Shown here: in pieces, positions 31,038-49,494 of the stretch
Layout of the letters: each line of letters starts with the position of its first letter
Position numbering within the stretch: position 1 is the stretch's first letter
IMG/VR virus record: IMGVR_UViG_3300025115_000013
Coordinates: 1 to 54,915 of that record
Direction: 5' to 3' (one strand)
Origin: a virus
DNA length: 54,915 nt
The notes under the pieces: generated by a model
The model's input: the letters and a program-made list of their open reading frames with translations, nothing else
The model's database searches: none
Told to the model about the DNA's origin: nothing
Translations under genes and position numbers: made by a program

Positions 31038-31330
31038 CTATTTTGGGTTATAAGGGATAGTTCCCCCAGAGTTATCATGCTGCTAGAGCATATACCTCAT
31101 TGTTAGCTGCGTTTGCAGTTATAGTTTTGTTTTCTTCGACCGGGTCTGCCGACCTTCATGGCTATGAGCCATGCGTCAACACAGAATACCCCAATCCTAC
31201 GGCTTCAAACTCTTGCCGAGCGCCATTCGTTCTATTTAACCCTTTGTCGATTCCTTTCACCCCCTCAGTGGTGGAGGTGGCGGCATCCGAGAGCCGCGTC
31301 CAAAAAGCTCTTAATAACTAAGGTTTACGC
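31038..31330 (-). ncRNA. ssrA: Circularly permuted tmRNA (ssrA)
   Basis: Read on the minus strand, the gene starts with the T-arm and 3' acceptor strand (CACCTCC, discriminator A, CCA at 31269-31271), then only four bases, then the 5' acceptor strand GGGGGTG (31258-31264) and the tmRNA-like GAAAGGAATCGACA. The acceptor has a G3-U70 pair, the alanine identity element. The tag frame at 31075-31116 encodes ANAANNEVYALAA and TGA. This order is that of permuted, two-piece tmRNAs, which rescue stalled ribosomes and tag proteins for proteolysis. The T-loop is atypical (8 nt). Ends are approximate. Confidence 0.88.
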
Positions 31331-31414
31331 TGTTTTTAATCTCCCTCTTTTAAGTCCTAGTATGTCAAATTTATTGTCATTTGGCAATAAAATAAAAATT
31401 TTGTTTTCCGTCAT
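31325..31414 (-). CDS. Possible tiny protein, 29 aa
   Basis: An ATG-started frame (MTENKIFILLPNDNKFDIL) without a clear Shine-Dalgarno site, just upstream of the tmRNA. Weak support. Confidence 0.25.
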   Translation of the reverse strand: MTENKIFILLPNDNKFDILGLKRGRLKTA

Positions 31415-31932: not shown

Positions 31933-32019
31933 TGGCGGAAGGACGGGGACTCGAACCCCGACAACCATTTCTGGTCGGCAGATTAGCAATCTGCTGGAAT
32001 ACCATTATCCGACCCTTCC
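31933..32019 (-). tRNA. tRNA-Ser(GCT)
   Basis: Anticodon arm GCAGA-TTGCTAA-TCTGC, long variable arm, acceptor GGAAGGG pairing TCCTTCC, CCA encoded. Reads AGC/AGU. Confidence 0.93.
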
Positions 32020-32027
32020 TTAATCTT

Positions 32028-32102
32028 TGGCTCCGAAGGGTGGGATCGAACCACCGACACACGGATTAACAGTCCGTCGTTCTGCCGCTGAACTACTTCG
32101 GA
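32028..32102 (-). tRNA. tRNA-Asn(GTT)
   Basis: Anticodon loop CTGTTAA, acceptor TCCGAAG/CTTCGGA, canonical T-loop TTCGATC, CCA encoded. Confidence 0.93.
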
Positions 32103-32122
32103 ATTGCATCACTATTTATCGA

Positions 32123-32199
32123 TGGTGCTGGGTGAAGGACTCGAACCTTCATCATTCTCCTTGTAAGGGAGATGTCTAACCTCTCAAACCAACCCAGCA
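32123..32199 (-). tRNA. tRNA-Val(TAC)
   Basis: Anticodon arm TCTCC-CTTACAA-GGAGA, acceptor TGCTGGG/CCCAGCA, T-loop TTCGAGT, CCA encoded. Confidence 0.92.
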
Positions 32200-32362
32200 T
32201 TGTTCTGTTTTTCTTGCAGCTTGTCTTTATCGGTCACAGGTTCTTCTTTAGCAGGCTTTTTAAAGATTGCATCCCATCGTTCCTCAAACTCTTTTTGCGG
32301 AATACTAACTGGTCTGGGAGTGCTACCTTTGCCTGCTTCATGTGCCATACTGTGTCCTATCT
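32200..32362. other. Spacer without a recognised gene
   Basis: About 160 bp between tRNA-Val and tRNA-Gly. On the minus strand there is no convincing start or ribosome site, and plus-strand frames across here are tRNA antisense shadows. Confidence 0.4.
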
Positions 32363-32436
32363 TGGAGCGGATAGCCAGAATCGAACTGGCGTCTTATGCT
32401 TGGCAAGCATAGGTAATACCATTATACGATATCCGC
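32363..32436 (-). tRNA. tRNA-Gly(GCC)
   Basis: Anticodon arm TATGC-TTGCCAA-GCATA, acceptor GCGGATA/TATCCGC, T-loop TTCGATT, CCA encoded. Confidence 0.94.
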
Positions 32437-32444
32437 ATACTTCT

Positions 32445-32518
32445 TGGTGGAGGTGGAGAGAATCGAACTCTCACGAAAAGCTTGCAAAGCTTCCAGGCTC
32501 CCATTACATCACACCCCC
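32445..32518 (-). tRNA. tRNA-Ala(TGC)
   Basis: Anticodon loop TTTGCAA. The acceptor GGGGGTG/CACCTCC, with its G3-U70 pair, is the same as that of the phage tmRNA. CCA encoded. Confidence 0.93.
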
Positions 32519-32525
32519 AATGTTC

Positions 32526-32601
32526 TGGTGCCCCCGGACGGATTCGAACCGCCGACATCCAGTTTACAAAACTGGCGCTCTACCAACTGAGCTACAAGGG
32601 C
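32526..32601 (-). tRNA. tRNA-Thr(TGT)
   Basis: Anticodon arm CCAGT-TTTGTAA-ACTGG, acceptor GCCCTTG/CGGGGGC with two G-U pairs, CCA encoded. Confidence 0.93.
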
Positions 32602-32653
32602 AAATCTTTTACTACAGAGGTATTTATCCCAATAAACAACTCTGTTAAAATCT

Positions 32654-32731
32654 TGGTCGGACATGTAGGATTCGAACCTACGTTATGCTGCATCCCAAAT
32701 GCAGTGCCATACCAGGCTAGGCGAATGTCCG
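32654..32731 (-). tRNA. tRNA-Pro(TGG)
   Basis: Anticodon arm CTGCA-TTTGGGA-TGCAG, acceptor CGGACAT/ATGTCCG, CCA encoded. Confidence 0.93.
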
Positions 32732-32747
32732 TAATTCTTTACTAAAC

Positions 32748-32858
32748 CATATAGAAGTAGATTGAACGGCGTAGGTTATAGTGCCGCTCATCTGGCAGGA
32801 CGACTTGAGAACGCTTCGGCTGCCACCGTATGGCCTCTCGTCAATCTGCTTTTATATG
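32748..32858 (-). ncRNA. Structured element E0 before tRNA-Leu
   Basis: An 18-nt terminal stem (CATATAAAAGCAGATTGA against TCAATCTACTTCTATATG, 16 of 18 pairs) closes a region with inner helices: GACGA/TCGTC, GCCA/TGGC, and CGGC/GCCG. No coding frame. The right arm runs into the CCA end of tRNA-Leu. Confidence 0.6.
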
Positions 32859-32940
32859 GTGCCCGGGGCCGGACTCGAACCGGCACGCCATAAGCGAGGG
32901 ATTTTAAGTCCCTTGCGTCTACCTATTTCGCCACCCGGGC
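32857..32940 (-). tRNA. tRNA-Leu(TAA)
   Basis: Anticodon arm AGGGA-CTTAAAA-TCCCT with a long variable arm (class II), acceptor GCCCGGG/CCCGGGC, CCA encoded. Confidence 0.94.
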
Positions 32941-38652: not shown

Positions 38653-38743
38653 TGGCGGAGACCCAGGGAGTTGAACCCTGTGAGGATATTACTACCCTCT
38701 ACGGATTAGCAATCCGCTGCATTACCGTCCTGCCCGATCTCCG
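38653..38743 (-). tRNA. tRNA-Ser(GCT), second copy
   Basis: Anticodon arm GCGGA-TTGCTAA-TCCGT, class II variable arm, acceptor CGGAGAT/GTCTCCG, T-loop TTCAACT, CCA encoded. It differs in sequence from the copy at 31933. Confidence 0.9.
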
Positions 38744-38798
38744 TTTTCCTACGAACCTTTTCTGGATGATGCTCTGGAAGGGTATCATACTTAAAACT

Positions 38799-38882
38799 TG
38801 GCGGAGGATAATAGACTCGAACTATCAACCTTTCGGTGGGACGGTTTTCAAGACCGTGTGTTGCCCCGCAACCCTATCCTCC
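38799..38882 (-). tRNA. tRNA-Ser(TGA)
   Basis: Anticodon arm ACGGT-CTTGAAA-ACCGT, class II variable arm, acceptor GGAGGAT/ATCCTCC, CCA encoded. Confidence 0.93.
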
Positions 38883-38883
38883 G

Positions 38884-39513
38884 CTATTTTTCGTATAAAC
38901 TCGTAAACCCTTTTCCGTATCTATTTATAGCATACTCTAAGTACTTCTTAATATCTTTCTCAAACAAACAAACTATGTCAGGGTTAGACTGTTGTTTAAT
39001 ATTCCACTGAGGCGTTTTATAGCCTTTGATCTCGTATATTACTCCATTGATCACAAAGTCGGGATAATATTTTCTTTCTTTGCTCTCCCAGATATATGTC
39101 CGAACTTCTTTACACCGTTCAATTAATATATTATGATCTAAATGATAAAGCACAAACGCTAACTCCCAACTAGAATCACAAAAAATATTTTTATACCAAC
39201 CTTTTTTACCTCTGCCAGATCCTTGGCGCAGCCCACCGTTACTTATCTTTGCTTTCTCAGAAATTTTTCGTTTCCTGTCAACTTCCTTTTCGGGCGTTAG
39301 TCCTTTCCCTAAAGTTGATCCCTTAACCCCTTTGTTCCACGCAGTGTGTAACCCAGTTACACCTTTATTCCATGCAGGTAACCCTTTAGGTCTGTGAGCA
39401 TTTGGCGATTTATGTCTCTGTACACGATTCGGATTCTCTTTACAGAAAGGAGAGTGCGCTCCTAACCCACCTGGGTTACTGAATAATCGATTACAATATT
39501 CACAAGTAAGCAT
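38884..39513 (-). CDS. Homing endonuclease, zinc finger plus PD-(D/E)xK-like domain
   Basis: The 209-aa protein begins with a zinc finger (CEYCNRLF, then HSPFC), continues with Trp-Asn-Lys-Gly repeats of NUMOD type (PAWNKGVTG, AWNKGVKG), and ends in a nuclease domain: SSWELAFVLYHL, YYPDFVINGVIYEIKGY. That domain resembles the one in the uvsW intein-gap enzyme. It lies between tRNA-Ser and tRNA-Lys, with CATAAATA late-promoter-like sequence before its start. Confidence 0.82.
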   Translation of the reverse strand: MLTCEYCNRLFSNPGGLGAHSPFCKENPNRVQRHKSPNAHRPKGLPAWNKGVTGLHTAWNKGVKGSTLGKGLTPEKEVDRKRKISEKAKISNGGLRQGSGRGKKGWYKNIFCDSSWELAFVLYHLDHNILIERCKEVRTYIWESKERKYYPDFVINGVIYEIKGYKTPQWNIKQQSNPDIVCLFEKDIKKYLEYAINRYGKGFTSLYEK

Positions 39514-39558
39514 AATATTATTTATGCCTCACAATCAAATCTGCTGCATTAAACCATG

Positions 39559-39774
39559 CTAAAACACTCTGCTTGCAAAATGCTTTAGGCTGGTAGGAGC
39601 ACAGGGATTCGAACCCTGACCTGGCAGATTAAAAGTCTGCTGTGCTTGACCGTTGACACCATACTCCCGTTGTGTTTCCATCTTTTCTTTACGGCGAGTT
39701 GCTTTGGTTGTTTTACCATGAGCACCCGCCTTTCGTTTATGGACATGTATGCCCATTGGGTTTCTTAGTTTCAT
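39559..39774 (-). CDS. Small basic protein overlapping tRNA-Lys
   Basis: MKLRNPMGIHVHKRKAGAHG starts a very basic protein with an AAGGAG site before the ATG, coupled to the 37-aa gene. The first ~35 codons look coding; the rest of the 71-codon frame runs through the whole tRNA-Lys gene (39591-39668). Either the true stop was lost or the frame overlaps the tRNA. Confidence 0.5.
   Translation of the reverse strand: MKLRNPMGIHVHKRKAGAHGKTTKATRRKEKMETQREYGVNGQAQQTFNLPGQGSNPCAPTSLKHFASRVF
39591..39668 (-). tRNA. tRNA-Lys(TTT)
   Basis: Anticodon arm GCAGA-CTTTTAA-TCTGC, acceptor GGGAGTA/TGCTCCT, T-loop TTCGAAT, CCA encoded. Confidence 0.92.
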
Positions 39775-39784
39775 TTGCTTCTCC

Positions 39785-39898
39785 TTAGATAAATTTGTTA
39801 ATGCTATTACGATGCTTACAGCTCATTTTCTTGTAATACTTTCCTTTACACCCTGGGTTACGCTTGTCAGTAAAAACCTTACGATAAAGTGCTTTCAT
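39785..39898 (-). CDS. Small basic protein, 37 aa
   Basis: MKALYRKVFTDKRNPGCKGK is followed by more Lys, Tyr and two more Cys. A good GGGAG site and a sigma70 promoter lie upstream, so it is probably a real early gene. Its basic Cys-containing makeup suggests nucleic acid or metal binding. Confidence 0.65.
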   Translation of the reverse strand: MKALYRKVFTDKRNPGCKGKYYKKMSCKHRNSINKFI

Positions 39899-39919
39899 GT
39901 TGCTCTCCCATAAAATAAT

Positions 39920-39948
39920 AGTTTACTACATTTTGGTTTATTTGTCAA
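39920..39948 (-). promoter_or_regulatory. Sigma70 promoter inside the RNA array
   Basis: Minus strand TTGACA, 17-nt spacer, TAAACT. It would drive the 37-aa and 71-aa genes and tRNA-Lys. Confidence 0.78.
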
Positions 39949-39958
39949 CCGAAAAATT

Positions 39959-40036
39959 TGGCCTCAGAGACAGGACTCGAACCTGCATAATCCTGTTTAG
40001 AAGACAGGTGCCTCATTCCAATTAGACTACTCTGAG
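39959..40036 (-). tRNA. tRNA-Arg(TCT)
   Basis: Anticodon arm CCTGT-CTTCTAA-ACAGG, acceptor CTCAGAG/CTCTGAG, T-loop TTCGAGT, CCA encoded. Confidence 0.93.
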
Positions 40037-40042
40037 ATTGTT

Positions 40043-40120
40043 TGGCAGGGGTAGTTGGATTCGAACCAACGATACTGATTTCAAAGACCAGTGCCTTAGG
40101 CCGGACTAGGCGATACCCCA
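40043..40120 (-). tRNA. tRNA-Gln(TTG)
   Basis: Anticodon loop CTTTGAA, acceptor TGGGGTA/TACCCCT with the first pair open as in tRNA-Gln, T-loop TTCGAAT, CCA encoded. Confidence 0.9.
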
Positions 40121-40126
40121 ACTGTT

Positions 40127-40202
40127 TGGTCGCTAGAGTGACACTCGAAATCACACAGACATCGTTATGAGCGATGCGCTCTCCCTCTTAAGCTATCTAG
40201 CG
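40127..40202 (-). tRNA. tRNA with CAT anticodon (elongator Met or Ile2)
   Basis: Anticodon arm CATCG-CTCATAA-CGATG, acceptor CGCTAGA/TCTAGCG, CCA encoded. The T-arm is irregular. Methionine and lysidine-modified isoleucine cannot be told apart by eye. Confidence 0.82.
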
Positions 40203-40204
40203 TA

Positions 40205-40279
40205 TGGAGTGAGCGACAGGATTTGCACCTGCATAAGACTGGTTTGCAATCAGCCGCCTAGCTATTCAGCCACGCTCAC
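40205..40279 (-). tRNA. tRNA-Cys(GCA)
   Basis: Anticodon loop TTGCAAA with a weak stem, acceptor GTGAGCG/CGCTCAC, T-loop TGCAAAT (G at position 55), CCA encoded, 2 nt from the next tRNA. Confidence 0.82.
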
Positions 40280-40421
40280 ATTGTATTTGTATGCTCTGCT
40301 GTCTCTACTCAGCTCTAGTGCGTAGCTGCACACCCTTGACAGTCCCTAACTTGTTGCTTACGGGATTTCTCTGTTGTCAGTCCTAGTTTATCGCTAGTCC
40401 GGTTCCTAGGTAGGAACATTC
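40280..40421. other. Hairpin-rich spacer
   Basis: No gene. Inverted pairs such as TGACA...TGTCA and CCTAG...CTAGG suggest folded RNA of the same kind as the larger elements near 46 kb. Confidence 0.35.
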
Positions 40422-40498
40422 TGGTGCCCTGCTTCAGAGTCGAACTGAAACACACTCACTTTTGAAGAGAGCCGCTTTACCAAATTGCGTAGCAGGGC
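40422..40498 (-). tRNA. tRNA with CAA anticodon in a class I body (or TCA)
   Basis: Acceptor GCCCTGC/GCAGGGC, D-arm CGC/GCG, T-arm TTCAG/CTGAA and CCA are good. The best anticodon register is CTCTC-TTCAAAA-GTGAG, giving CAA (leucine), but the variable loop has only 5 nt, unlike normal tRNA-Leu. Shifting by one gives TCA, an opal-reading Trp-like tRNA, with a poorer stem. Confidence 0.75.
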
Positions 40499-40505
40499 AG
40501 TATTA

Positions 40506-40580
40506 TGGTGCTCAAGTAAGGAATCAAACCTTAGACTCTGTCGTACCAAGACAGCGGTATACCATTTACCTACAAGAGCA
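40506..40580 (-). tRNA. tRNA-Thr(GGT)
   Basis: Anticodon arm CTGTC-TTGGTAC-GACAG, acceptor TGCTCTT pairing TTGAGCA, T-loop TTTGATT, CCA encoded; it abuts the next gene. Confidence 0.85.
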
Positions 40581-40677
40581 TGGTGGACTATGAAGGAATC
40601 GAACCTTCGAGCTGCCGTCGCATATTCAGTACCATACTTAAAGGGAATCGAACCCCAATACTCGCCATTTATAGCCC
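40581..40677 (-). tRNA. Composite tRNA-like gene with two T-arms
   Basis: The ends are good: acceptor GGGCTAT/ATAGTCC (7 of 7), discriminator A and CCA, T-arm GAAGG-TTCGATT-CCTTC. Inside is a second T-arm-like hairpin (GGGG-TTCGATT-CCC) and no normal anticodon arm, so the length is 97 nt. If that inner loop is the anticodon loop it would read CGA. It is a fusion, an interrupted tRNA or a decayed one. Confidence 0.6.
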
Positions 40678-40683
40678 AGTTAC

Positions 40684-40755
40684 TGGTCCCCGCAGTAGGA
40701 TTCGAACCTACACAAGCTGGTTTAGGAAACCTGCTGCTGCTCCATCAGTGCGGAG
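40684..40755 (-). tRNA. tRNA-Arg(CCT)
   Basis: Anticodon loop TTCCTAA with stem CAGGT/ACCAG (one mismatch), acceptor CTCCGCA/TGCGGGG, T-loop TTCGAAT, CCA encoded. Confidence 0.85.
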
Positions 40756-40761
40756 ATTAAT

Positions 40762-40885
40762 TGGTGCCGAGAGTAGGATTCGAACCTACAGTGATTGCCA
40801 AATCTAGCATTCTCTTGCGGAGAATACAACGGAATCGAACCGTATAACGCCTGCCGGCGTGTGTCTACCGTTTCACCATCCCAGC
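40762..40885 (-). tRNA. Interrupted leucine-type tRNA, 124 nt
   Basis: Ends GCTGGGA/TCTCGGC, CCA, and T-arm GTAGG-TTCGAAT-CCTAC are canonical, and the D-arm (GGTGAAACGGTAGACAC) is of tRNA-Leu type. Between D-arm and the presumed anticodon region lie about 50 extra nt forming three hairpins: ACGCC-GGCA-GGCGT, ACGG-TTCGATT-CCGT and ATTCTC/GAGAAT. The anticodon cannot be read with confidence. Confidence 0.62.
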
Positions 40886-40891
40886 AATTTT

Positions 40892-40969
40892 TGGTGCCCG
40901 AGGTGAGATTCGAACTCACAAAACTCTTGTCCCTCAAACAAGCGACTTTGCCAATTTGTCCACAAGGGC
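40892..40969 (-). tRNA. tRNA with GAG anticodon in a class I body
   Basis: Anticodon arm CTTGT-TTGAGGG-ACAAG gives GAG (leucine CUC/CUU), but the variable loop is only 6 nt. D-arm GAC/GTC, T-arm GTGAG-TTCGAAT-CTCAC and CCA are normal; the acceptor has two mismatches. Confidence 0.8.
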
Positions 40970-40977
40970 ATGTTACT

Positions 40978-41053
40978 TGGTCCCACCACTCCGTAACGAT
41001 CGGAGATCCTCGGATTTTCAGTCCGCTGCATAGACCATCTTTGCTATAGTGGG
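40978..41053 (-). tRNA. tRNA-Phe(GAA) with altered T-loop
   Basis: Anticodon arm GCGGA-CTGAAAA-TCCGA, acceptor CCCACTA/TGGTGGG, CCA encoded. The T-loop is ATCGTTA instead of TTCRANY. Confidence 0.88.
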
Positions 41054-41061
41054 ATTGTCTT

Positions 41062-41136
41062 TGGTGCCTAGCGACAGACTTGCACTGTCCTCTGATGCTT
41101 ACAAGACATCTATGACGCTATCTACACTTGCTAGGC
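41062..41136 (-). tRNA. tRNA-Thr(TGT), second copy
   Basis: Anticodon arm GATGT-CTTGTAA-GCATC, acceptor GCCTAGC/GCTAGGC, T-loop TGCAAGT (G at 55), CCA encoded. Confidence 0.85.
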
Positions 41137-41143
41137 AAAATTT

Positions 41144-41228
41144 TGGAGGAGGATAATGAAATCGAATCATCGCCCTTTCGGACGGGCCTGCTTTCGAAAC
41201 AGGTTTTAGCCCAGCTAACCTATCCTCC
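41144..41228 (-). tRNA. tRNA-Ser(CGA)
   Basis: Anticodon arm CCTGT-TTCGAAA-GCAGG, class II variable arm with CCC/GGG stem, acceptor GGAGGAT/ATCCTCC, T-loop TTCGATT, CCA encoded. Confidence 0.92.
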
Positions 41229-41233
41229 ATGTT

Positions 41234-41317
41234 TGGAAGCCGTGGTAGGGCTTGAACCTACATGCCCGAAGGCCCCACTTTCAAAGAGTGGTGTGTCTAC
41301 CATTCCACCACACGGCT
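41234..41317 (-). tRNA. Class II tRNA with TTG anticodon
   Basis: The body is leucine-like (D-arm GTGGAATGGTAGACAC, long variable arm GGCCTTCGGGC), but the perfect anticodon arm CCACT-CTTTGAA-AGTGG gives TTG, which reads the glutamine codon CAA. Acceptor AGCCGTG/CACGGCT, CCA encoded. Confidence 0.82.
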
Positions 41318-41323
41318 ATTGTT

Positions 41324-41399
41324 TGGTAGTCCAGGCTGGACTCGAACCAGCATAATCTTCGATGTCAACGAAGGTACTCACCTCTCATACCACTGGACT
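41324..41399 (-). tRNA. tRNA-Val(GAC)
   Basis: Anticodon arm CTTCG-TTGACAT-CGAAG, acceptor AGTCCAG/CTGGACT, T-loop TTCGAGT, CCA encoded. Confidence 0.92.
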
Positions 41400-41403
41400 A
41401 TAT

Positions 41404-41480
41404 TGGTGCGCCGTATAGGAGTCGAACCTATATCATCCTGATTAAGAGTCAGGTATAATCAGCCATTATACGAACGACGC
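41404..41480 (-). tRNA. tRNA-Lys(CTT)
   Basis: Anticodon arm CCTGA-CTCTTAA-TCAGG, acceptor GCGTCGT/ACGGCGC, T-loop TTCGACT, CCA encoded. Confidence 0.92.
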
Positions 41481-41693
41481 GATGTTAGTAAATTACTACT
41501 AGTCTACGGTGTTTTATAGTTGCTGTTGCAGCAACCCACGGGTAGAAAAAGAAATCTAAGTAAAACTGTAATAGCAATATCGGCACTACATTACAAACAT
41601 TGTAGTATGATTCATATTGTTTCTGCATCTTATACCGATGCAAGCTTGTTACATTTGCGGTCATAATATGTATTTACCGCAACAGTAAGTATT
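41481..41693. other. Non-coding spacer with hairpins
   Basis: No gene. Contains TTGCTG-TTG-CAGCAA and TTGCGGT...ACCGCAA inverted repeats, again suggesting structured RNA between tRNAs. Confidence 0.4.
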
Positions 41694-41766
41694 TGGCACC
41701 CCATGAGCGAATCGAACGCCCGCCAGTGAGTTTCGAAGACTCTCCGCCGACTCCATCGGATGAGGC
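41694..41766 (-). tRNA. tRNA-Arg(TCG)
   Basis: Anticodon arm AGAGT-CTTCGAA-ACTCA, acceptor GCCTCAT/ATGGGGT, T-loop TTCGATT, CCA encoded. Confidence 0.9.
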
Positions 41767-41772
41767 AATGTT

Positions 41773-41875
41773 TGGTGGCCACAGAACAGGAGTTTAACCT
41801 GCTTAGTCAGAGACATAAGGGTTACACCTCGAGGATTCCCTTATCGTGCTGTCACGGCTGCTACGCATCTGCGCC
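41773..41875 (-). tRNA. Interrupted tRNA, probably Tyr-type, 103 nt
   Basis: CCA, a T-arm with loop TTAAACT, an acceptor (GGC..GCAG against CTGT..GCC with a bulge) and a short Tyr-type variable arm (GTC/GAC) are visible. The anticodon stem ATAAGGG/CCCTTAT is 7 bp and the loop has 16 nt holding a CCTCGAGG palindrome, followed by TGTAA. If the palindrome is an insert, the anticodon would be GTA. Confidence 0.55.
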
Positions 41876-41881
41876 ATTGTT

Positions 41882-41953
41882 TGGCCTCCCGTACACGAGT
41901 TGAACGTGTCATAGATGATTCGTAGTCATCAAGCCGGTTCCCCCGGACAGGAG
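41882..41953 (-). tRNA. tRNA-Arg(ACG)
   Basis: Anticodon arm GATGA-CTACGAA-TCATC; A34 would need deamination to inosine by host TadA. Acceptor CTCCTGT/ACGGGAG, T-loop TTCAACT, CCA encoded. Confidence 0.88.
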
Positions 41954-41961
41954 TTTATGTT

Positions 41962-42035
41962 TGGCAGGTCTAGAAGGAATCGAACCTCCGCCCGGTGTTT
42001 TGGAGACACTTACGCTACCATTACGCCATAGACCT
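41962..42035 (-). tRNA. tRNA-Trp(CCA)
   Basis: Anticodon loop CTCCAAA, acceptor AGGTCTA/TAGACCT, T-loop TTCGATT, CCA encoded. Its 5' end overlaps the stop of the 92-aa gene. Confidence 0.93.
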
Positions 42036-42299
42036 ATTTTGTTCTATTAAGAATACACCACGACAGTTATTGGCTGATAACTTGGAAATCTCATTGTTAT
42101 GGTCTTCTGCTATGTCAATAATTCGTTTTCTGTACTTCGCAACTGCATGAGGATCCATTGCAATAGCATATGCGATTTGTTGGCACTCATATGAGTATTC
42201 TTTAAACTTGCACATTGCAGGAGTCTTGCAAGTTTTAGTTATGTCACACTCCCAACACGGGGAGGCAAGAAGTGTATTAATCAGCTTATCTAGTATCAT
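42021..42299 (-). CDS. Hypothetical Cys-rich protein, 92 aa
   Basis: The N-terminal half has six cysteines (CWECDITKTCKTPAMCKF, YECQQ), suggesting a metal site; the rest is helical. A perfect late promoter (42319) and a GGAC site precede it. The last codons overlap tRNA-Trp by 15 nt. Confidence 0.65.
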   Translation of the reverse strand: MILDKLINTLLASPCWECDITKTCKTPAMCKFKEYSYECQQIAYAIAMDPHAVAKYRKRIIDIAEDHNNEISKLSANNCRGVFLIEQNRSMA

Positions 42300-42318
42300 T
42301 ATTTTTGTCCGTGTATTT

Positions 42319-42326
42319 TATTTATA
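42319..42326 (-). promoter_or_regulatory. T4-type late promoter
   Basis: Perfect TATAAATA on the minus strand, 20 nt before the start codon of the 92-aa gene. Confidence 0.72.
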
Positions 42327-42350
42327 ACTGAATCGGGACTTGTTAAAACT

Positions 42351-42427
42351 TGGTGCGAGCGGTCAGATTCGAACTGACAAACACCAACTTCTAAGGATGG
42401 CGGCTATACCGATTCGCCTACGCTCGC
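42351..42427 (-). tRNA. tRNA with TAG anticodon in a class I body
   Basis: Anticodon loop CTTAGAA gives TAG (leucine CUA family). The variable loop has only 5 nt and the anticodon stem has one T-T mismatch. Acceptor GCGAGCG/CGCTCGC, T-loop TTCGAAT, CCA encoded. Confidence 0.82.
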
Positions 42428-42443
42428 AAAATTACTTTAATCA

Positions 42444-42537
42444 TGGCTCCCCAGGACGGACTCGAACCGCCATATTACGCCTTTCGGCCTTTACGTCTGA
42501 TTAACAGTCAGGTCTCTTACCATTAGAGTACCGGGGA
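42444..42537 (-). tRNA. tRNA-Asn(GTT) with enlarged variable region
   Basis: Anticodon loop CTGTTAA, acceptor TCCCCGG/CTGGGGA, T-arm GGCGG-TTCGAGT-CCGTC, CCA encoded. Variable region is about 24 nt and contains GCC-GAAA-GGC, which no normal tRNA-Asn has. It looks like a hairpin insertion. Confidence 0.78.
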
Positions 42538-42621
42538 ATTAATATAACAGGATGCTTATTTTTCAATTAAAAGTTGAATTATGAGTTTGCTGGACGCATC
42601 CTTCTTATTCTTAAAAATTTA

Positions 42622-42629
42622 TATAAATA
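42622..42629 (+). promoter_or_regulatory. T4-type late promoter for the GIY-YIG gene
   Basis: Perfect TATAAATA on the plus strand, 67 nt before the ATG at 42696. A hairpin-forming leader follows it. Confidence 0.72.
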
Positions 42630-42695
42630 CATTGTGAGTCGCGATGCGCTAACATCCACTCACCCTAGACTAACACACTAAACTCGGAGTCCAGC

Positions 42696-43289
42696 ATGTC
42701 TATTTATAAACCTACATTTCTTTACATAAAACAACATACCGTTACAGGTAAATTGTATTTTGGTAAAACTACTAAAAACCCCGAATCATACGCAGGATCA
42801 GGGAAATATTGGTTAGCCCACATTAACAAACATGGTAAAAATCATGTCGAAACATTGTGGTATTGTTTATTCTACGATAAAGACGACTGTGTTTCTTTTG
42901 CCCAACATTTTTCTAAACAACACGATATAGTTAACTCTGATGACTGGGCTAACTTAATGGTAGAAAATGGTTTAAATGGCGGGTTAGTTAAAAACAATTA
43001 CTTTAAAATATACAATACGATACCAAGAACAGAGGCCCAAAAGTACAACAGATCAGTTCAACAACAAGGGAAAGCCTCAAAAACGTACCCTGTTATAATC
43101 AATAATATCGAATATCCGTCTATTACTGCTGCTGGAAGAGCATTTAACTTAACCGATGCAGCAATTCACCATTGGATTAAACTCGGGAAAGCCACTAGAA
43201 AAGAAAGAGAATTTAGAAGTCCTCGATATAGCTGCATTTCTTGTCGCAAAGAGCTTTCTACAAAAACGTCCCATAGTTGTGTACTATAG
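42696..43289 (+). CDS. GIY-YIG homing endonuclease
   Basis: The N-terminal YIKQHTVTGKLYFGKTT is the GIY-YIG core, followed by YAGSGKYWLAHINKHG. A helix-turn-helix-like SITAAGRAFNLTDAAIHHW (NUMOD1 type) and a terminal zinc finger (CISCRK, HSC) would bind DNA. It has a CGGAG site and its own late promoter, and is inserted against the direction of the tRNA array. Confidence 0.88.
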   Translation: MSIYKPTFLYIKQHTVTGKLYFGKTTKNPESYAGSGKYWLAHINKHGKNHVETLWYCLFYDKDDCVSFAQHFSKQHDIVNSDDWANLMVENGLNGGLVKNNYFKIYNTIPRTEAQKYNRSVQQQGKASKTYPVIINNIEYPSITAAGRAFNLTDAAIHHWIKLGKATRKEREFRSPRYSCISCRKELSTKTSHSCVL

Positions 43290-43300
43290 CATCCTAAACT

Positions 43301-43379
43301 TGGAGCGGGTATGGAGAGTCGAACTCCGCATTATCGGTTTGGAAGACCGCTGGACGCCCCTTGTCCTAATATACCCGCA
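43301..43379 (-). tRNA. tRNA-Gly(TCC)
   Basis: Anticodon arm GCGGT-CTTCCAA-ACCGA, acceptor GCGGGTA/TACCCGC, T-loop TTCGACT, CCA encoded. Confidence 0.92.
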
Positions 43380-43544
43380 TGAATTCTGACCTGCCCTTTT
43401 TAGTCCAGGAGTACTCTCCTATCATCCAGGGTGTTGCAGCAGGCATACCCATTTAACTGTTGCAAATAGATCCCTCCCCGCGTTTGCAGCCCGGGTTACA
43501 AGAGGTTACAGTAGGATCGTCTACTAATCTAACCAGTTAAAATT
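43380..43544. other. Non-coding spacer, possible decayed tRNA
   Basis: No gene. On the minus strand a CCGGG-CTGCAAA-CGCGG stem-loop looks like a Cys anticodon arm, but acceptor and T-arm are not found. Confidence 0.3.
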
Positions 43545-43620
43545 TGGTGGACCAGTGGGGTAACGATCCCCAATCTCCGCATTGCAAGTGCGGCGTGTAG
43601 CCCTCTATCACTACCAGCCC
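43545..43620 (-). tRNA. tRNA-Ala(TGC), second copy, altered T-loop
   Basis: Anticodon arm CCGCA-CTTGCAA-TGCGG, acceptor GGGCTGG/CTGGTCC with G3-U70, CCA encoded. T-arm TGGGG-ATCGTTA-CCCCA has the altered loop. Confidence 0.87.
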
Positions 43621-43627
43621 AAATGTA

Positions 43628-43702
43628 TGGCGACCTAGGAGGGAATCAAACCCTCGTCCCCTGATAGACAGTCAAGGATAATAATCACTATAAGACTAGG
43701 CC
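43628..43702 (-). tRNA. tRNA-Asp(GTC)
   Basis: Anticodon arm CTTGA-CTGTCTA-TCAGG, acceptor GGCCTAG/CTAGGTC, T-loop TTTGATT, CCA encoded. Confidence 0.9.
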
Positions 43703-43708
43703 AAATTT

Positions 43709-43783
43709 TGGTCTCAGTGGTGTGACTCGAACACACATCGTCTCCGCCCCAAACGGAGTGACCCACCTTTAGCCCACACTGAG
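43709..43783 (-). tRNA. tRNA-Pro(TGG), second copy
   Basis: Anticodon arm CTCCG-TTTGGGG-CGGAG, acceptor CTCAGTG/CACTGAG, T-loop TTCGAGT, CCA encoded. Confidence 0.92.
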
Positions 43784-43790
43784 AATATTT

Positions 43791-43865
43791 TGGTATACCG
43801 TAGGGGTTACGATCCCCTCTAGGTAGCTTGAAAGGCTACTGACCTCACCAGATGTCTAACGGTAT
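43791..43865 (-). tRNA. tRNA-Glu(TTC) with altered T-loop
   Basis: Anticodon arm GTAGC-CTTTCAA-GCTAC, acceptor ATACCGT/ACGGTAT, CCA encoded. T-arm AGGGG-ATCGTAA-CCCCT. Confidence 0.88.
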
Positions 43866-43871
43866 ATTGTT

Positions 43872-43947
43872 TGGTAGTCCCACCAGGTAACGCTCCTGGA
43901 CCTGTCGCTTATCAGGCGACTGTACAGAACTTCTATACTATAGGACT
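43872..43947 (-). tRNA. tRNA-Ile(GAT) with altered T-loop
   Basis: Anticodon arm GTCGC-CTGATAA-GCGAC, acceptor AGTCCTA/TGGGACT, CCA encoded. T-arm CCAGG-AGCGTTA-CCTGG. Confidence 0.88.
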
Positions 43948-43949
43948 AA

Positions 43950-44060
43950 ATCCTTTCTCAGCTCGAGGTTATGTCGTCTGAGACTGTGCAAATTAAACCA
44001 CCGCAGCGGGTATTGCACTTTAGCAGTATCAGTGACTGCTCGGCACTTGCATAAGTAAAC
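43950..44060 (-). ncRNA. Three-hairpin structured element
   Basis: Three consecutive hairpins: TCTCAG/CTGAGA (about 43954-43982), GTGCAA/TTGCAC with an inner ACCGC/GCGGGT (about 43985-44022), and AGCAGT/ACTGCT (about 44024-44041). No coding frame. Confidence 0.5.
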
Positions 44061-44066
44061 AACTTA

Positions 44067-44141
44067 GGGGTGACCGGTGGGTAACGCTCCCACTCTACCT
44101 CTTTCACAGAGAGGGTTGCTAAACTTTTACAATACGGTCAC
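44067..44141 (-). tRNA. tRNA-His(GTG) with altered T-loop
   Basis: Anticodon arm CCTCT-CTGTGAA-AGAGG, acceptor GTGACCG/CGGTCAC, T-arm GTGGG-AGCGTTA-CCCAC. The 3' end reads CCC rather than CCA. Confidence 0.82.
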
Positions 44142-44162
44142 ACTTAAATTGTCTACTGCATT

Positions 44163-44245
44163 TGGTGGGTGCCTGTGGTTTCGATCCACTCCCCGAAGGA
44201 CCAGTTTTACAGACTAGTTGCTGAAGCCATCAGCTTTCGACACCC
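44163..44245 (-). tRNA. tRNA-Tyr(GTA)
   Basis: Anticodon arm CTAGT-CTGTAAA-ACTGG, class II variable arm TCCTTCGGGGA, acceptor GGGTGTC/GGCACCC, T-loop ATCGAAA, CCA encoded. Confidence 0.88.
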
Positions 44246-44254
44246 GCTATTATA

Positions 44255-44340
44255 TGGTGGGTTAGGTTGGATTCGAACCAACTAAGCCTGAGGCAAGAGA
44301 TTTACAGTCTCCCGAGGATCGCCGTCTCCCCTGCTAACCC
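44255..44340 (-). tRNA. tRNA-Tyr(GTA), second copy
   Basis: Anticodon arm GGAGA-CTGTAAA-TCTCT, class II variable arm, acceptor GGGTTAG/CTAACCC, canonical T-loop TTCGAAT, CCA encoded. Confidence 0.9.
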
Positions 44341-44346
44341 GTTGTT

Positions 44347-44441
44347 TGGTAGTCCCCCACGGTTACGATCCGTGCCGTTGCAGCCCATCTGACCGCTCTC
44401 CAGAGGATATAAATCTCCGCCGCTCACCAAAGCTGAGGACC
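44347..44441 (-). tRNA. tRNA with probable TAT anticodon, extended body
   Basis: Acceptor GGTCCTC/GGGGACT, T-arm CACGG-ATCGTAA-CCGTG (altered loop), CCA encoded. The best anticodon arm GGAGA-TTTATAT-CCTCT has one mismatch and gives TAT (isoleucine AUA). About 27 nt with a GCGG/CTGC hairpin replace the short variable loop. Confidence 0.65.
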
Positions 44442-44872
44442 ATCTGTGTTATTTAAATATCCTTTGCAAGACATTTAAGTAACACAGCAGTGATCTAATA
44501 GATTATTATAATTACTGTAATCTATGGATTCAGTTGCTGTCGTTACACTTGTTATCAGCCTGAGACTAGAGCTAATACGTTAGACCTTGCGCCGACGATT
44601 ATCACAGCCTTGCGAGCTGCTTTCCGCCCTCTTCCACCATAATCATATAGTAGTCCAACATCGCTGCCTTTTTATACTAGTGGCGTTTCTAGTGTAATGT
44701 ATGACTACTCGGTCTTCTGTCTACCGCCAACCTTGCGGGCTGTGCAGGGCATGACCCCTTACGTGCAACTTCTTACCAACATCCTCTACCTTGCGAGCTT
44801 TGGATGACTCCGTTACCTTGCGGCCGGAGCATTAAGCGATTTTCACCATACATCAGGAACGACTTTGCGTTT
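44442..44872 (-). ncRNA. Hairpin-rich non-coding region
   Basis: No gene. Hairpins by eye: TGTGTTA/TAACACA (44445-44486), ATAGATTA/TAATCTAT (44498-44525), an AGTAGTC/GACTACT element with an inner ACTAG/CTAGT (about 44654-44718), CATCC/GGATG and CTCCG/CGGAG. Several loops contain the motif CGCAAGG on the minus strand. Confidence 0.5.
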
Positions 44873-44947
44873 GTGTATAAATGGTTGGAATTGAACCAAC
44901 TGCATTCTTCTTAAAAGGAAGACGCTCTACCATAGAGCAACATTTGC
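44873..44947 (-). tRNA. tRNA-Lys(TTT), second copy, weak acceptor
   Basis: Anticodon arm TCTTC-CTTTTAA-GAAGA, D-arm GCTC/GAGC and T-arm GTTGG-TTCAATT-CCAAC are good. The acceptor has mismatches near its end and CCA is not encoded (CAC). Confidence 0.75.
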
Positions 44948-45552
44948 AACCTACCTCGAAGAGCGTTCCTTGTTGCTTCATATCCTTTTAGGATACAAAA
45001 TACAACTCTCCGAATACCTTTTGCCTGCCGGCTACTCAGTCGTCTTTCTGGATTAGTGTCCTGTACGCTTGCGCGAGGCCATAAACCCATAAAACTGCAC
45101 AACAGCCTTTCCTTGCGGGGTTGGACCGTTGCACTACCCTTTCTCATACCTGCTAATTAGTTGGTTTGCTAGTGAAGTCAGCACCACCTGTTACTTTCCA
45201 TCTGCTCAAGTTCCCATTGATGCAATCTCAGGCTTGTAAGCAAACGTTCTTTCCACTAACTCTAACTTTACAGTTAGCCCCACCCGTCTTTTAAGTGAGG
45301 CCTGCGTCGCCGCAGTGAGCTGGCTTGCTTAAATGGACCATTACTGGCGCAAGTGCGTAGGCTTCCTTGCTTTGGGCACCTCACGGTGCTTACCCTAATG
45401 ACGTTAAGCCGCCAAAACTCTACAACTTAAAACTTGTTTGCTGAGCTGCATTGCCCAAACCGGGAATCACACTCTTATCCGCTTGACTCAGTTGCTGTAT
45501 ATCTCTATACATGCTCACTATCGTGATACCGAATCAAGTTTCAGCAAATTCT
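44948..45552 (-). ncRNA. Hairpin-rich non-coding region
   Basis: No protein gene and no full tRNA found. Short perfect hairpins include CTAACT/AGTTAG, CTGCG-TCGC-CGCAG and GCACC-TCAC-GGTGC. CGCAAGG occurs again near 45110. It is probably part of the long array transcript. Confidence 0.4.
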
Positions 45553-45629
45553 TGGTTGCGGAGGCAGGATTCGCACCTGCGATCTCCGGGTTATGAGCCC
45601 AGCGGGGACGGCTTCTCCCCTACTCCGCG
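45553..45629 (-). tRNA. Initiator tRNA-fMet(CAT)
   Basis: Initiator hallmarks: C1-A72 mismatch in CGCGGAG/CTCCGCA and consecutive G-C pairs in the anticodon stem CTGGG-CTCATAA-CCCGG. T-loop TGCGAAT, CCA encoded. The D-arm (GGGG...CCCC) is unusually GC-rich. Confidence 0.9.
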
Positions 45630-47922: not shown

Positions 47923-49494
47923 TTAACGCTTTTCTCTTGTGTGACCTTTTACTGTATCAACTTTAGTAGTTTGTGCTCTTTTAGGACGGATGTCAACTGA
48001 TGCCCCGGAAGCAATTTGTTCAATCTTATCGTTGATTGCTGCTACCCTCTTGTTACTTGCTACTTCTTTTTCTGCGGTCTTGCTTGCATTTTTGGTTGGG
48101 CTGTACCCAAACGCCATCTTTCCATTAGTGCCAGTAGCAAAATATACTTTGCCTGGATCAAGGACAATTGCTCCTTCAAAATTTGGTGGATACAACGATG
48201 TTAGTTTAGTTGCCACCGCGTTATTGCCTTTTTTACCAACAGTTAGGTAAACCTGGATAACTGGACTAGCATTCACAAACTTAATACACATTTCTCCGAA
48301 CTTTGGATCAGAGTTAATGTCGGCAGCAACAATCTTTGCTAATCCTGCCAGTGCATGATAACCGACACTATAACCCGGCTTCGCTTCCGGATTAAGTAAG
48401 CCCATTAAATGGTCAAGCTCTTTCTTGTCTGCTGCTGTGAGCGAGGTTGCTTGATTTAAAGTTTTTACCCCTGATTTAATCAATTCAAGTATTTTGGTGC
48501 CAACACGCTGCGAGATCATACCTCGCTTTGTGGCATACTTTACAGGAAACTCTACTGATGATGCTGCGCTAATCTCGTCAAGGATCGCTATTTGGTCAGC
48601 ATACTTTGTGATCATCTTCTTTTGTGTCGATGTACCTTTTTCTTTAACATAGTCGATACCATCATACACGTTCTTAATACTTGCTTTAGCACCCTTCTTA
48701 CCCTTACTGCTAATGCCTACTTCAATACCATCCTTAATTACAAAGCTATCTACTAACCCGTTAGTCTTAGAATCTGGGAAAATAATCTGTGAGCCTTTCC
48801 AGTCATCGCCACCTAACACATCTTTGCGGGCTGCTTCTGCCCCCTGGTCTGTAATCATTCCTAACACAAGGGCAATAGGAGCAATAATTTCACCTAGGTC
48901 ATCCTGAATAGCAGGGATCATATCTGCTTTACCTTCAAACACTGGCATCTGTCCGCCTAACAGCATTTGTAAACCAGGTAATAAATCTTTTACCTTGTCT
49001 TTACCTTGTAACGCACTAACAATCTCAAGCGGGCTGTTAAATATTGAGTTAGGAGCAAATAAGTCAGTAGGTTTTAACCCGTGACTTGACTTAATGCTCG
49101 ATCCTTTAGTTAATTGCCAATCTCCTGGTAAGTCGTTGTTCTTCCATTGGCCAGCCATGTCTGTGCTAATTTTCTTAAAGAATCGACAAACGTAAACCCC
49201 ATTGCCGTCATTGTCAGTTAGCGTTAAGATCGCAAACGCTTTTGTACCTGCATTTGGGGTATTTACATATTGGATACCCGGGTAATTAATAACAATCTTC
49301 TGCGCTTCTGTTGCTAATTCGTTGTAATCTTCATACTCACCCGGCATACCCGGAAAATATTCAACCTTCTGGAAGGTTAATACATCGTCTGGATTACTCT
49401 TACTAAAGAATGTGTCTCCTTGATCTCTGTAAAGAAGACCACGGGATGCTTCGGTTAACGTTATTTTTTCAAGTTTGTTCAGGATATCACGCAT
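47923..49494 (-). CDS. 523-aa protein with a nuclease-like motif
   Basis: The N-terminal MRDILNKLEKITLTEASRGLLYRDQGD resembles internal virion proteins of marine T4-like phages. Around residues 245-270 VDSFVIKDG and IEVGISSKGKKGAKAS fit a PD-(D/E)xK nuclease pattern (D, then ExxxSSK). The C-terminus is basic (RPKRAQTTKVDTVKGHTREKR). A late promoter-like AATAAATA precedes it. A virion-delivered nuclease is possible but unproven. Confidence 0.5.
   Translation of the reverse strand: MRDILNKLEKITLTEASRGLLYRDQGDTFFSKSNPDDVLTFQKVEYFPGMPGEYEDYNELATEAQKIVINYPGIQYVNTPNAGTKAFAILTLTDNDGNGVYVCRFFKKISTDMAGQWKNNDLPGDWQLTKGSSIKSSHGLKPTDLFAPNSIFNSPLEIVSALQGKDKVKDLLPGLQMLLGGQMPVFEGKADMIPAIQDDLGEIIAPIALVLGMITDQGAEAARKDVLGGDDWKGSQIIFPDSKTNGLVDSFVIKDGIEVGISSKGKKGAKASIKNVYDGIDYVKEKGTSTQKKMITKYADQIAILDEISAASSVEFPVKYATKRGMISQRVGTKILELIKSGVKTLNQATSLTAADKKELDHLMGLLNPEAKPGYSVGYHALAGLAKIVAADINSDPKFGEMCIKFVNASPVIQVYLTVGKKGNNAVATKLTSLYPPNFEGAIVLDPGKVYFATGTNGKMAFGYSPTKNASKTAEKEVASNKRVAAINDKIEQIASGASVDIRPKRAQTTKVDTVKGHTREKR

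Follow-up and report, generated by a model that had tools for sequence, protein, structure and literature searches.

Textbooks assign a long variable arm to every bacterial leucine tRNA, and tRNA classifiers treat this arm as a fixed mark. Here we analyse a stretch of viral DNA of 54,915 nt (IMG/VR record IMGVR_UViG_3300025115_000013, positions 1 to 54,915; the whole of this stretch is called the window below) whose main tRNA array contains three tRNAs that combine leucine anticodons with short variable loops, and a class II, leucine-like tRNA with a UUG anticodon. A first reading of the letters alone (the original prediction) took it that bacterial tRNA-Leu needs a long arm, which is untrue for the synthetase: E. 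coli leucyl-tRNA synthetase (LeuRS) needs A73, A15-U48, G18G19 and A20a but neither the anticodon nor the long arm, and arm-less leucine tRNA variants remain active with it (PMC9976931).

A few related cases have been described. The tRNA cluster of Mycobacterium mucogenicum/phocaicum contains one short-loop tRNA-Leu(TAG) (Behra et al. 2019, PMC6582537), which resembles the tRNAs discussed here in its short variable loop, its leucine anticodon and its location in a mobile-type tRNA cluster, but which stands as a single structural oddity, without a link to phages, a family, identity elements or chromosomal use. Animal mitochondrial tRNA-Leu(UUR) is also short-armed and is charged by LeuRS via A73 and A14 (PMC9976931), although it is organellar, belongs to an unrelated lineage and has its own LeuRS. 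For the class II UUG tRNA, the closest parallel is offered by the nematode nev-tRNAs, which have a long-arm body and the anticodon of another amino acid (PMC4300185). Finally, the tRNA-Tyr of phage T5, whose distinctive variable loop resists retron-Eco7 (PMC11555353, PMC13096335), is likewise encoded by a phage and has undergone remodelling of its variable region. However, it is specific for Tyr rather than Leu, its arm is altered and not lost, and resistance has been shown for T5 whereas it is a hypothesis for short-arm tRNA-Leu. In the literature searched we found no description of a short-arm leucine tRNA family, of its abundance in phages, of its leucine identity core or of a role as the sole UAA tRNA of a bacterium.

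Leucine tRNAs with short variable arms

The three tRNAs were called by ARAGORN on the minus strand: tRNA-Leu(CAA) at 40422..40498 and tRNA-Leu(UAG) at 42351..42427, each with a 5-nt variable loop, and tRNA-Leu(GAG) at 40892..40969, with a 6-nt loop. In each, the D stem is of 3 bp, the discriminator is A73 and the CCA end is encoded, and all retain A14, G18G19, A20a and U48; position 15 is A in the GAG and UAG tRNAs, which complete the A15-U48 pair, and U in the CAA tRNA. Leucine anticodons in class I bodies, as originally proposed, are thus borne out. The Rfam tRNA model recovers the CAA, GAG and UAG tRNAs with 47.5, 47.5 and 60.9 bits, and the UUG tRNA with 55.2 bits. In comparison with E. 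coli-type class II tRNA-Leu, the leucine anticodons, A73, A14, A15-U48 (in two of three), G18G19, A20a and the 3-bp D stem are shared, but the arm measures 5-6 nt, not 10 or more, so that these molecules represent a variant form. Neither do they resemble allo-tRNAs or selC-like tRNAs, which have an 8/4 or 9/3 branch and a long arm, since their acceptor stems are of 7 bp, their T stems of 5 bp and their loops short. Minimum free energy folding of single tRNAs gave no clean cloverleaves and was not used, comparison with the family being preferred.

The CAA, GAG and UAG tRNAs are very probably short-arm forms of tRNA-Leu that carry leucine, without any change to the genetic code. They would be true leucine tRNAs whose long variable arm has been lost, and the bacterial LeuRS of the host would most likely charge them, since its recognition depends on A73 and the D-loop/hinge core (A14, A15-U48, G18G19 and A20a), whereas arm and anticodon are ignored. 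Under the standard code, the CAA tRNA would read UUG, the GAG tRNA CUC and CUU, and the UAG tRNA CUA and CUG. They would supplement the ordinary long-arm tRNA-Leu(UAA) encoded at 32857..32940 on the minus strand (called by ARAGORN, with 53.6 bits for the long-arm leucine model described below), whose presence in the window implies that the phage uses both arm forms.

Membership of a leucine lineage was assessed with profile hidden Markov models (HMMs) trained with the anticodon masked, whose classes include short-arm leucine (L_short), long-arm leucine (L_long) and glutamine (Q). The GAG tRNA scored 29.7 bits with L_short versus 17.9 for the next model, and the UAG tRNA 30.6 versus 22.8. In masked pairwise comparisons, the neighbours of all three tRNAs were mainly short-arm leucine tRNAs, and for the CAA tRNA they were so in 11 of 12 cases, its top match being the window's own UAG tRNA. 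All three therefore belong to a short-arm family defined by a leucine anticodon, a loop of less than 9 nt and the nearest masked body, the CAA tRNA by its neighbours and not by HMM rank. A tree built without the anticodon loop and variable region separates short-arm leucine, long-arm leucine and other tRNAs with 20 label changes, versus 77 expected. The group of bodies to which the GAG tRNA belongs shares the motif GUGGACAAAUUGG.AAAGUC and has variable regions of 10 nt (locus L445), 7 nt (L372), 6 nt (L373) and 6 nt (the window), a gradation suggesting that the arm was lost in steps.

It had also been suggested that the tRNA at 40422 could be an opal-reading, Trp-like tRNA, since shifting its anticodon loop by one base would make UCA (TCA) appear. 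That register pairs three of the five anticodon-stem positions versus four of five for CAA, however, and the single U30-U40 mismatch of the CAA register is common to the sister tRNA at 42351. Furthermore, UGA serves as the stop codon of 5 of 18 window genes, and the nearest neighbours of the 40422 tRNA include CAA short-arm leucine tRNAs as well as the sister UAG tRNA. The opal register was therefore rejected, and we regard it as extremely improbable.

Short-arm leucine tRNAs in other phages and in bacteria

The 54.9-kb viral record encodes a T4-like replication set (helicase, primase and a gp32-like single-strand binding protein), and its helicase is 56% identical to that of Pseudomonas phage PA5oct, 53% to that of Agrobacterium phage Atu_ph07 and 51% to that of Sinorhizobium phage Phosso. 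The window is part of a jumbo phage that is kin to PA5oct and Phosso. Five leucine tRNAs of Phosso, a complete phage available as an isolate, are short-armed (CAG, GAG twice, CAA and UAA), and from these a search pattern was built with the anticodon left out. It matched 113 stretches in IMG/VR, and 80 loci of these were fetched. All 81 matching tRNAs in the fetched loci have leucine anticodons (37 UAG, 36 CAA and 8 UAA), nearly all with A73. Although a few ARAGORN calls are plainly wrong (e.g. a 'CAA' at locus L409, in the second sample described below), the fact that an anticodon-blind pattern returns only leucine anticodons rules out chance or mis-calling as the source of these tRNAs.

Of the leucine tRNAs in the same 80 loci, 138 are short-armed and 26 long-armed. 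The A15-U48 pair is present in 125 of the 138 short-armed ones, versus 185 of 684 other class I tRNAs (Fisher p ~5e-46), a comparison in which U48 is in part imposed by the Phosso pattern, which also favours the short-arm form. For this reason, a second sample of phage loci was drawn with a tRNA-Tyr pattern. Here, 24 of the 80 leucine tRNAs are short-armed and 56 long-armed, while all 71 serine tRNAs are long-armed and none is short (p ~4e-8). At least one short-arm leucine tRNA occurs in 18 of 43 leucine-bearing loci, and A15, U48 and A73 occur together in 22 of the 24. Some 30% of phage leucine tRNAs thus have no long arm in a sample that was not selected on leucine tRNAs, and the loss of the arm in leucine but not in serine tRNAs fits a rule by which it is allowed only where the synthetase is indifferent to the arm.

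In GTDB genomes, the Phosso-derived pattern matched 49 stretches, and 48 of the 49 matches called by ARAGORN are leucine tRNAs. Most are the UAA tRNA of Curtobacterium species, records of many species carrying the same gene, and others are found in Actinomyces, Arthrobacter rhombi, Nocardioides zeae, Actinomadura macra and several metagenome-assembled genomes. Every Rfam tRNA match was collected in the complete genome of Curtobacterium pusillum AA3. Its chromosome has 47 tRNAs, and its sole UAA-anticodon tRNA is short-armed, the remaining four leucine isoacceptors being long-armed; the plasmid array (locus L332, on the second replicon at 252-266 kb, with more than 30 tRNAs) contains no UAA tRNA. 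Since UUA would hardly be readable otherwise in C. pusillum, the short-arm tRNA there must be functional in leucine decoding, evidence by necessity that is read from the gene complement. In a family search around C. pusillum, the short-arm gene was found in 5 of 299 genomes. The suggestion of a new type of leucine tRNA with a short arm is therefore supported and widened, to a large phage family that extends to some bacterial chromosomes and has leucine identity elements and anticodons.

Several points nevertheless weigh against reading the window's tRNAs as leucine carriers. The masked HMM score of the CAA tRNA is weak with every model and is best for Phe (13.7 bits), not Leu, and with U15 this tRNA has no A15-U48 pair. 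The acceptor stem of the GAG tRNA has two mismatches, which may make it a weak tRNA. The tree, built on such short sequences, is weakly supported, and the 113 IMG/VR matches are partly redundant. Lastly, the rules of LeuRS recognition come from E. coli, and we infer the actual charging and use of the CAA, GAG and UAG tRNAs, as well as of the UUG tRNA.

The class II UUG tRNA and the genetic code

The tRNA at 41234..41317 on the minus strand, called by ARAGORN with the anticodon UUG, has a leucine-type D arm (A14 A15), U48 and a variable region of 13 nt with a 3-bp stem. Its masked HMM score is 41.6 bits with L_long versus 19.8 with Q, so that the original description of a class II, leucine-like tRNA with TTG was accurate. 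Its anticodon loop, in contrast, is CUUUGAA, the commonest loop of phage tRNA-Gln (15 of 40). Unlike a class II tRNA-Leu, it has neither A73 nor a leucine anticodon but U73 and UUG. U73 is seen in none of 23 long-arm leucine tRNAs and in 6 of 40 phage glutamine tRNAs, and A1-U72, which it also has, in none of the 23 and in 2 of the 40. We therefore consider that this is probably a leucine tRNA remoulded to glutamine. The remoulding would have changed the loop to CUUUGAA, A73 to U73 and G1-C72 to A1-U72, and the last two changes should block LeuRS. However, phage tRNA-Gln usually has U1-A72 and A or G at position 73, and since the 1-72 pair and discriminator of the 41234 tRNA are thus unusual for glutamine, its charging with glutamine is less certain than its loss of leucine identity. 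An alternative is that nothing charges this tRNA well.

The occurrence of such bodies raises the question of whether some codons are translated as a different amino acid, as had been proposed, the class I tRNAs carrying something other than leucine at CUN and UUG and the 41234 tRNA inserting leucine (or serine) at CAA. The leucine-type body of the latter would be in accord with this scenario, as would the nev-tRNAs, which have long arms and non-leucine anticodons and can accept leucine in vitro (PMC4300185). With its U73 instead of A73 and its Gln-type loop, however, the 41234 tRNA is not expected to do so. Moreover, when window proteins were aligned with their PA5oct and Phosso homologues and residues scored per codon, CUN and UUG aligned mainly with Leu (in PA5oct, 22 of 31 for CUA, 17 of 28 for UUG and 7 of 10 for CUC), and CAA with Gln in 18 of 35 cases, the next residue being Lys with 4. 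This, together with the recurrence of short-arm bodies with leucine anticodons over many phages and bacteria, makes codon reassignment very unlikely, and it was rejected, also for UGA; there may be low-level codon ambiguity in the phage. What stands of the original interpretation is the short-arm leucine tRNAs, and what falls is codon reassignment, opal reading and the synthetase's need for a long arm.

Loss of the arm, and the phage tRNA arrays

Phages would most likely lose the arm to evade defence nucleases that cleave long variable loops, and could afford this only with a synthetase that disregards the arm. This is a plausible hypothesis; no nuclease cutting the tRNA-Leu arm was identified in this analysis. 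More tentatively, and with considerable doubt, variable-region remodelling in phages as a whole could be immune evasion from loop-reading nucleases (retron-Eco7, Septu and possible relatives), the arm being deleted in tRNA-Leu, which is possible because LeuRS ignores it, kept in tRNA-Ser and added to tRNA-Asn, tRNA-Ile(UAU), tRNA-Thr and tRNA-Cys. Another possibility is that the odd tRNAs do not decode at all but are decoys that absorb host anticodon nucleases, or degenerate genes. The acceptor mismatches of the GAG tRNA and the composite elements with two T arms in the array (see below) would be consistent with this, and a putative anti-defence role has been ascribed to mobile tRNA arrays (PMC12803027). 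Yet the short-arm tRNAs have retained identity elements and CCA ends, and the form is widely conserved and provides the only UAA tRNA of C. pusillum, which makes the decoy scenario unlikely.

If the short-arm tRNAs do carry leucine, nature has put LeuRS to the test of an arm deletion many times over. Annotators would have reason not to label short-arm leucine genes as mis-predicted or recoded, and compact natural leucine tRNAs would be on offer for tRNA engineering. A direct test is set up of whether phages alter variable loops to evade tRNA-cutting defences, for which Phosso and S. meliloti provide a cultured system.

The tRNAs of the window lie in two clusters on the minus strand, at 31933-32940 and 38653-45629, with 37 tRNAs called by ARAGORN in total. 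The main array (38653..45629) accounts for 29 of them, plus several missed by ARAGORN. It includes a class I tRNA-Gln(UUG) with G73 at 40043..40120 (minus strand, ARAGORN), kin to the tRNA-Gln of T5-like and Erwinia/Vibrio phages. The 523-aa protein at 47923, used as a query for relatives, and an exact pattern derived from the window's own CAA tRNA returned no match. No tRNA was found near the helicase in the loci of IMG/VR relatives, and among 22 whole contigs searched with the tRNA model, one has a tRNA and none an array.

Other RNA genes were noted on the minus strand. The phage encodes a GOLLD RNA (44557-45013), which lies inside the main array and encloses a tRNA-Lys(UUU), and a permuted, two-piece tmRNA (31075-31332). 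In each of two composite elements (40762-40885 and 40581-40682), a single acceptor stem spans a pair of T arms, and one of the elements was called by ARAGORN as a tRNA-Leu(UAG) interrupted by a 45-nt intron. Such elements may represent one tRNA nested in another or may have arisen by recombination. In seven tRNAs or tRNA-like genes (40978-41053, 43545-43620, 43791-43865, 43872-43947, 44067-44141, ~44163-44250 and ~44347-44435), the UUCGANU T loop is replaced by A54-type loops (AUCGUUA, AUCGUAA, AGCGUUA or AUCGAAA), which overall occur in 54 of 1931 phage tRNAs.

Long variable regions are also found outside the leucine tRNAs. The tRNA-Asn(GUU) at 42444-42537 (minus strand) has one of 24 nt, and long-arm tRNA-Asn is recurrent in phages (8 of 52 in the tRNA-Tyr-selected set, and at L113:4817-4902). 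The last of the A54-type genes listed above, a tRNA-Ile(UAU) missed by ARAGORN, belongs to a type that recurs in phage arrays (the window and loci L164, L166, L191, L202, L204, L210, L404, L419 and L445) and whose variable arm measures 21-24 nt and often contains an AGAU motif. In serine tRNAs of the window, at 38799-38882 and 41144-41228 (minus strand), and of Phosso loci L113-L115, the D loop is 5 nt long (CGGGG, CUGGG). The discriminator of E. coli serine tRNA is G73, and U73 was seen in 8 of 57 phage serine tRNAs. Phosso also has two tRNAs with a CUA anticodon, i.e. amber readers, at L119:484-559 and L114:6732-6807.

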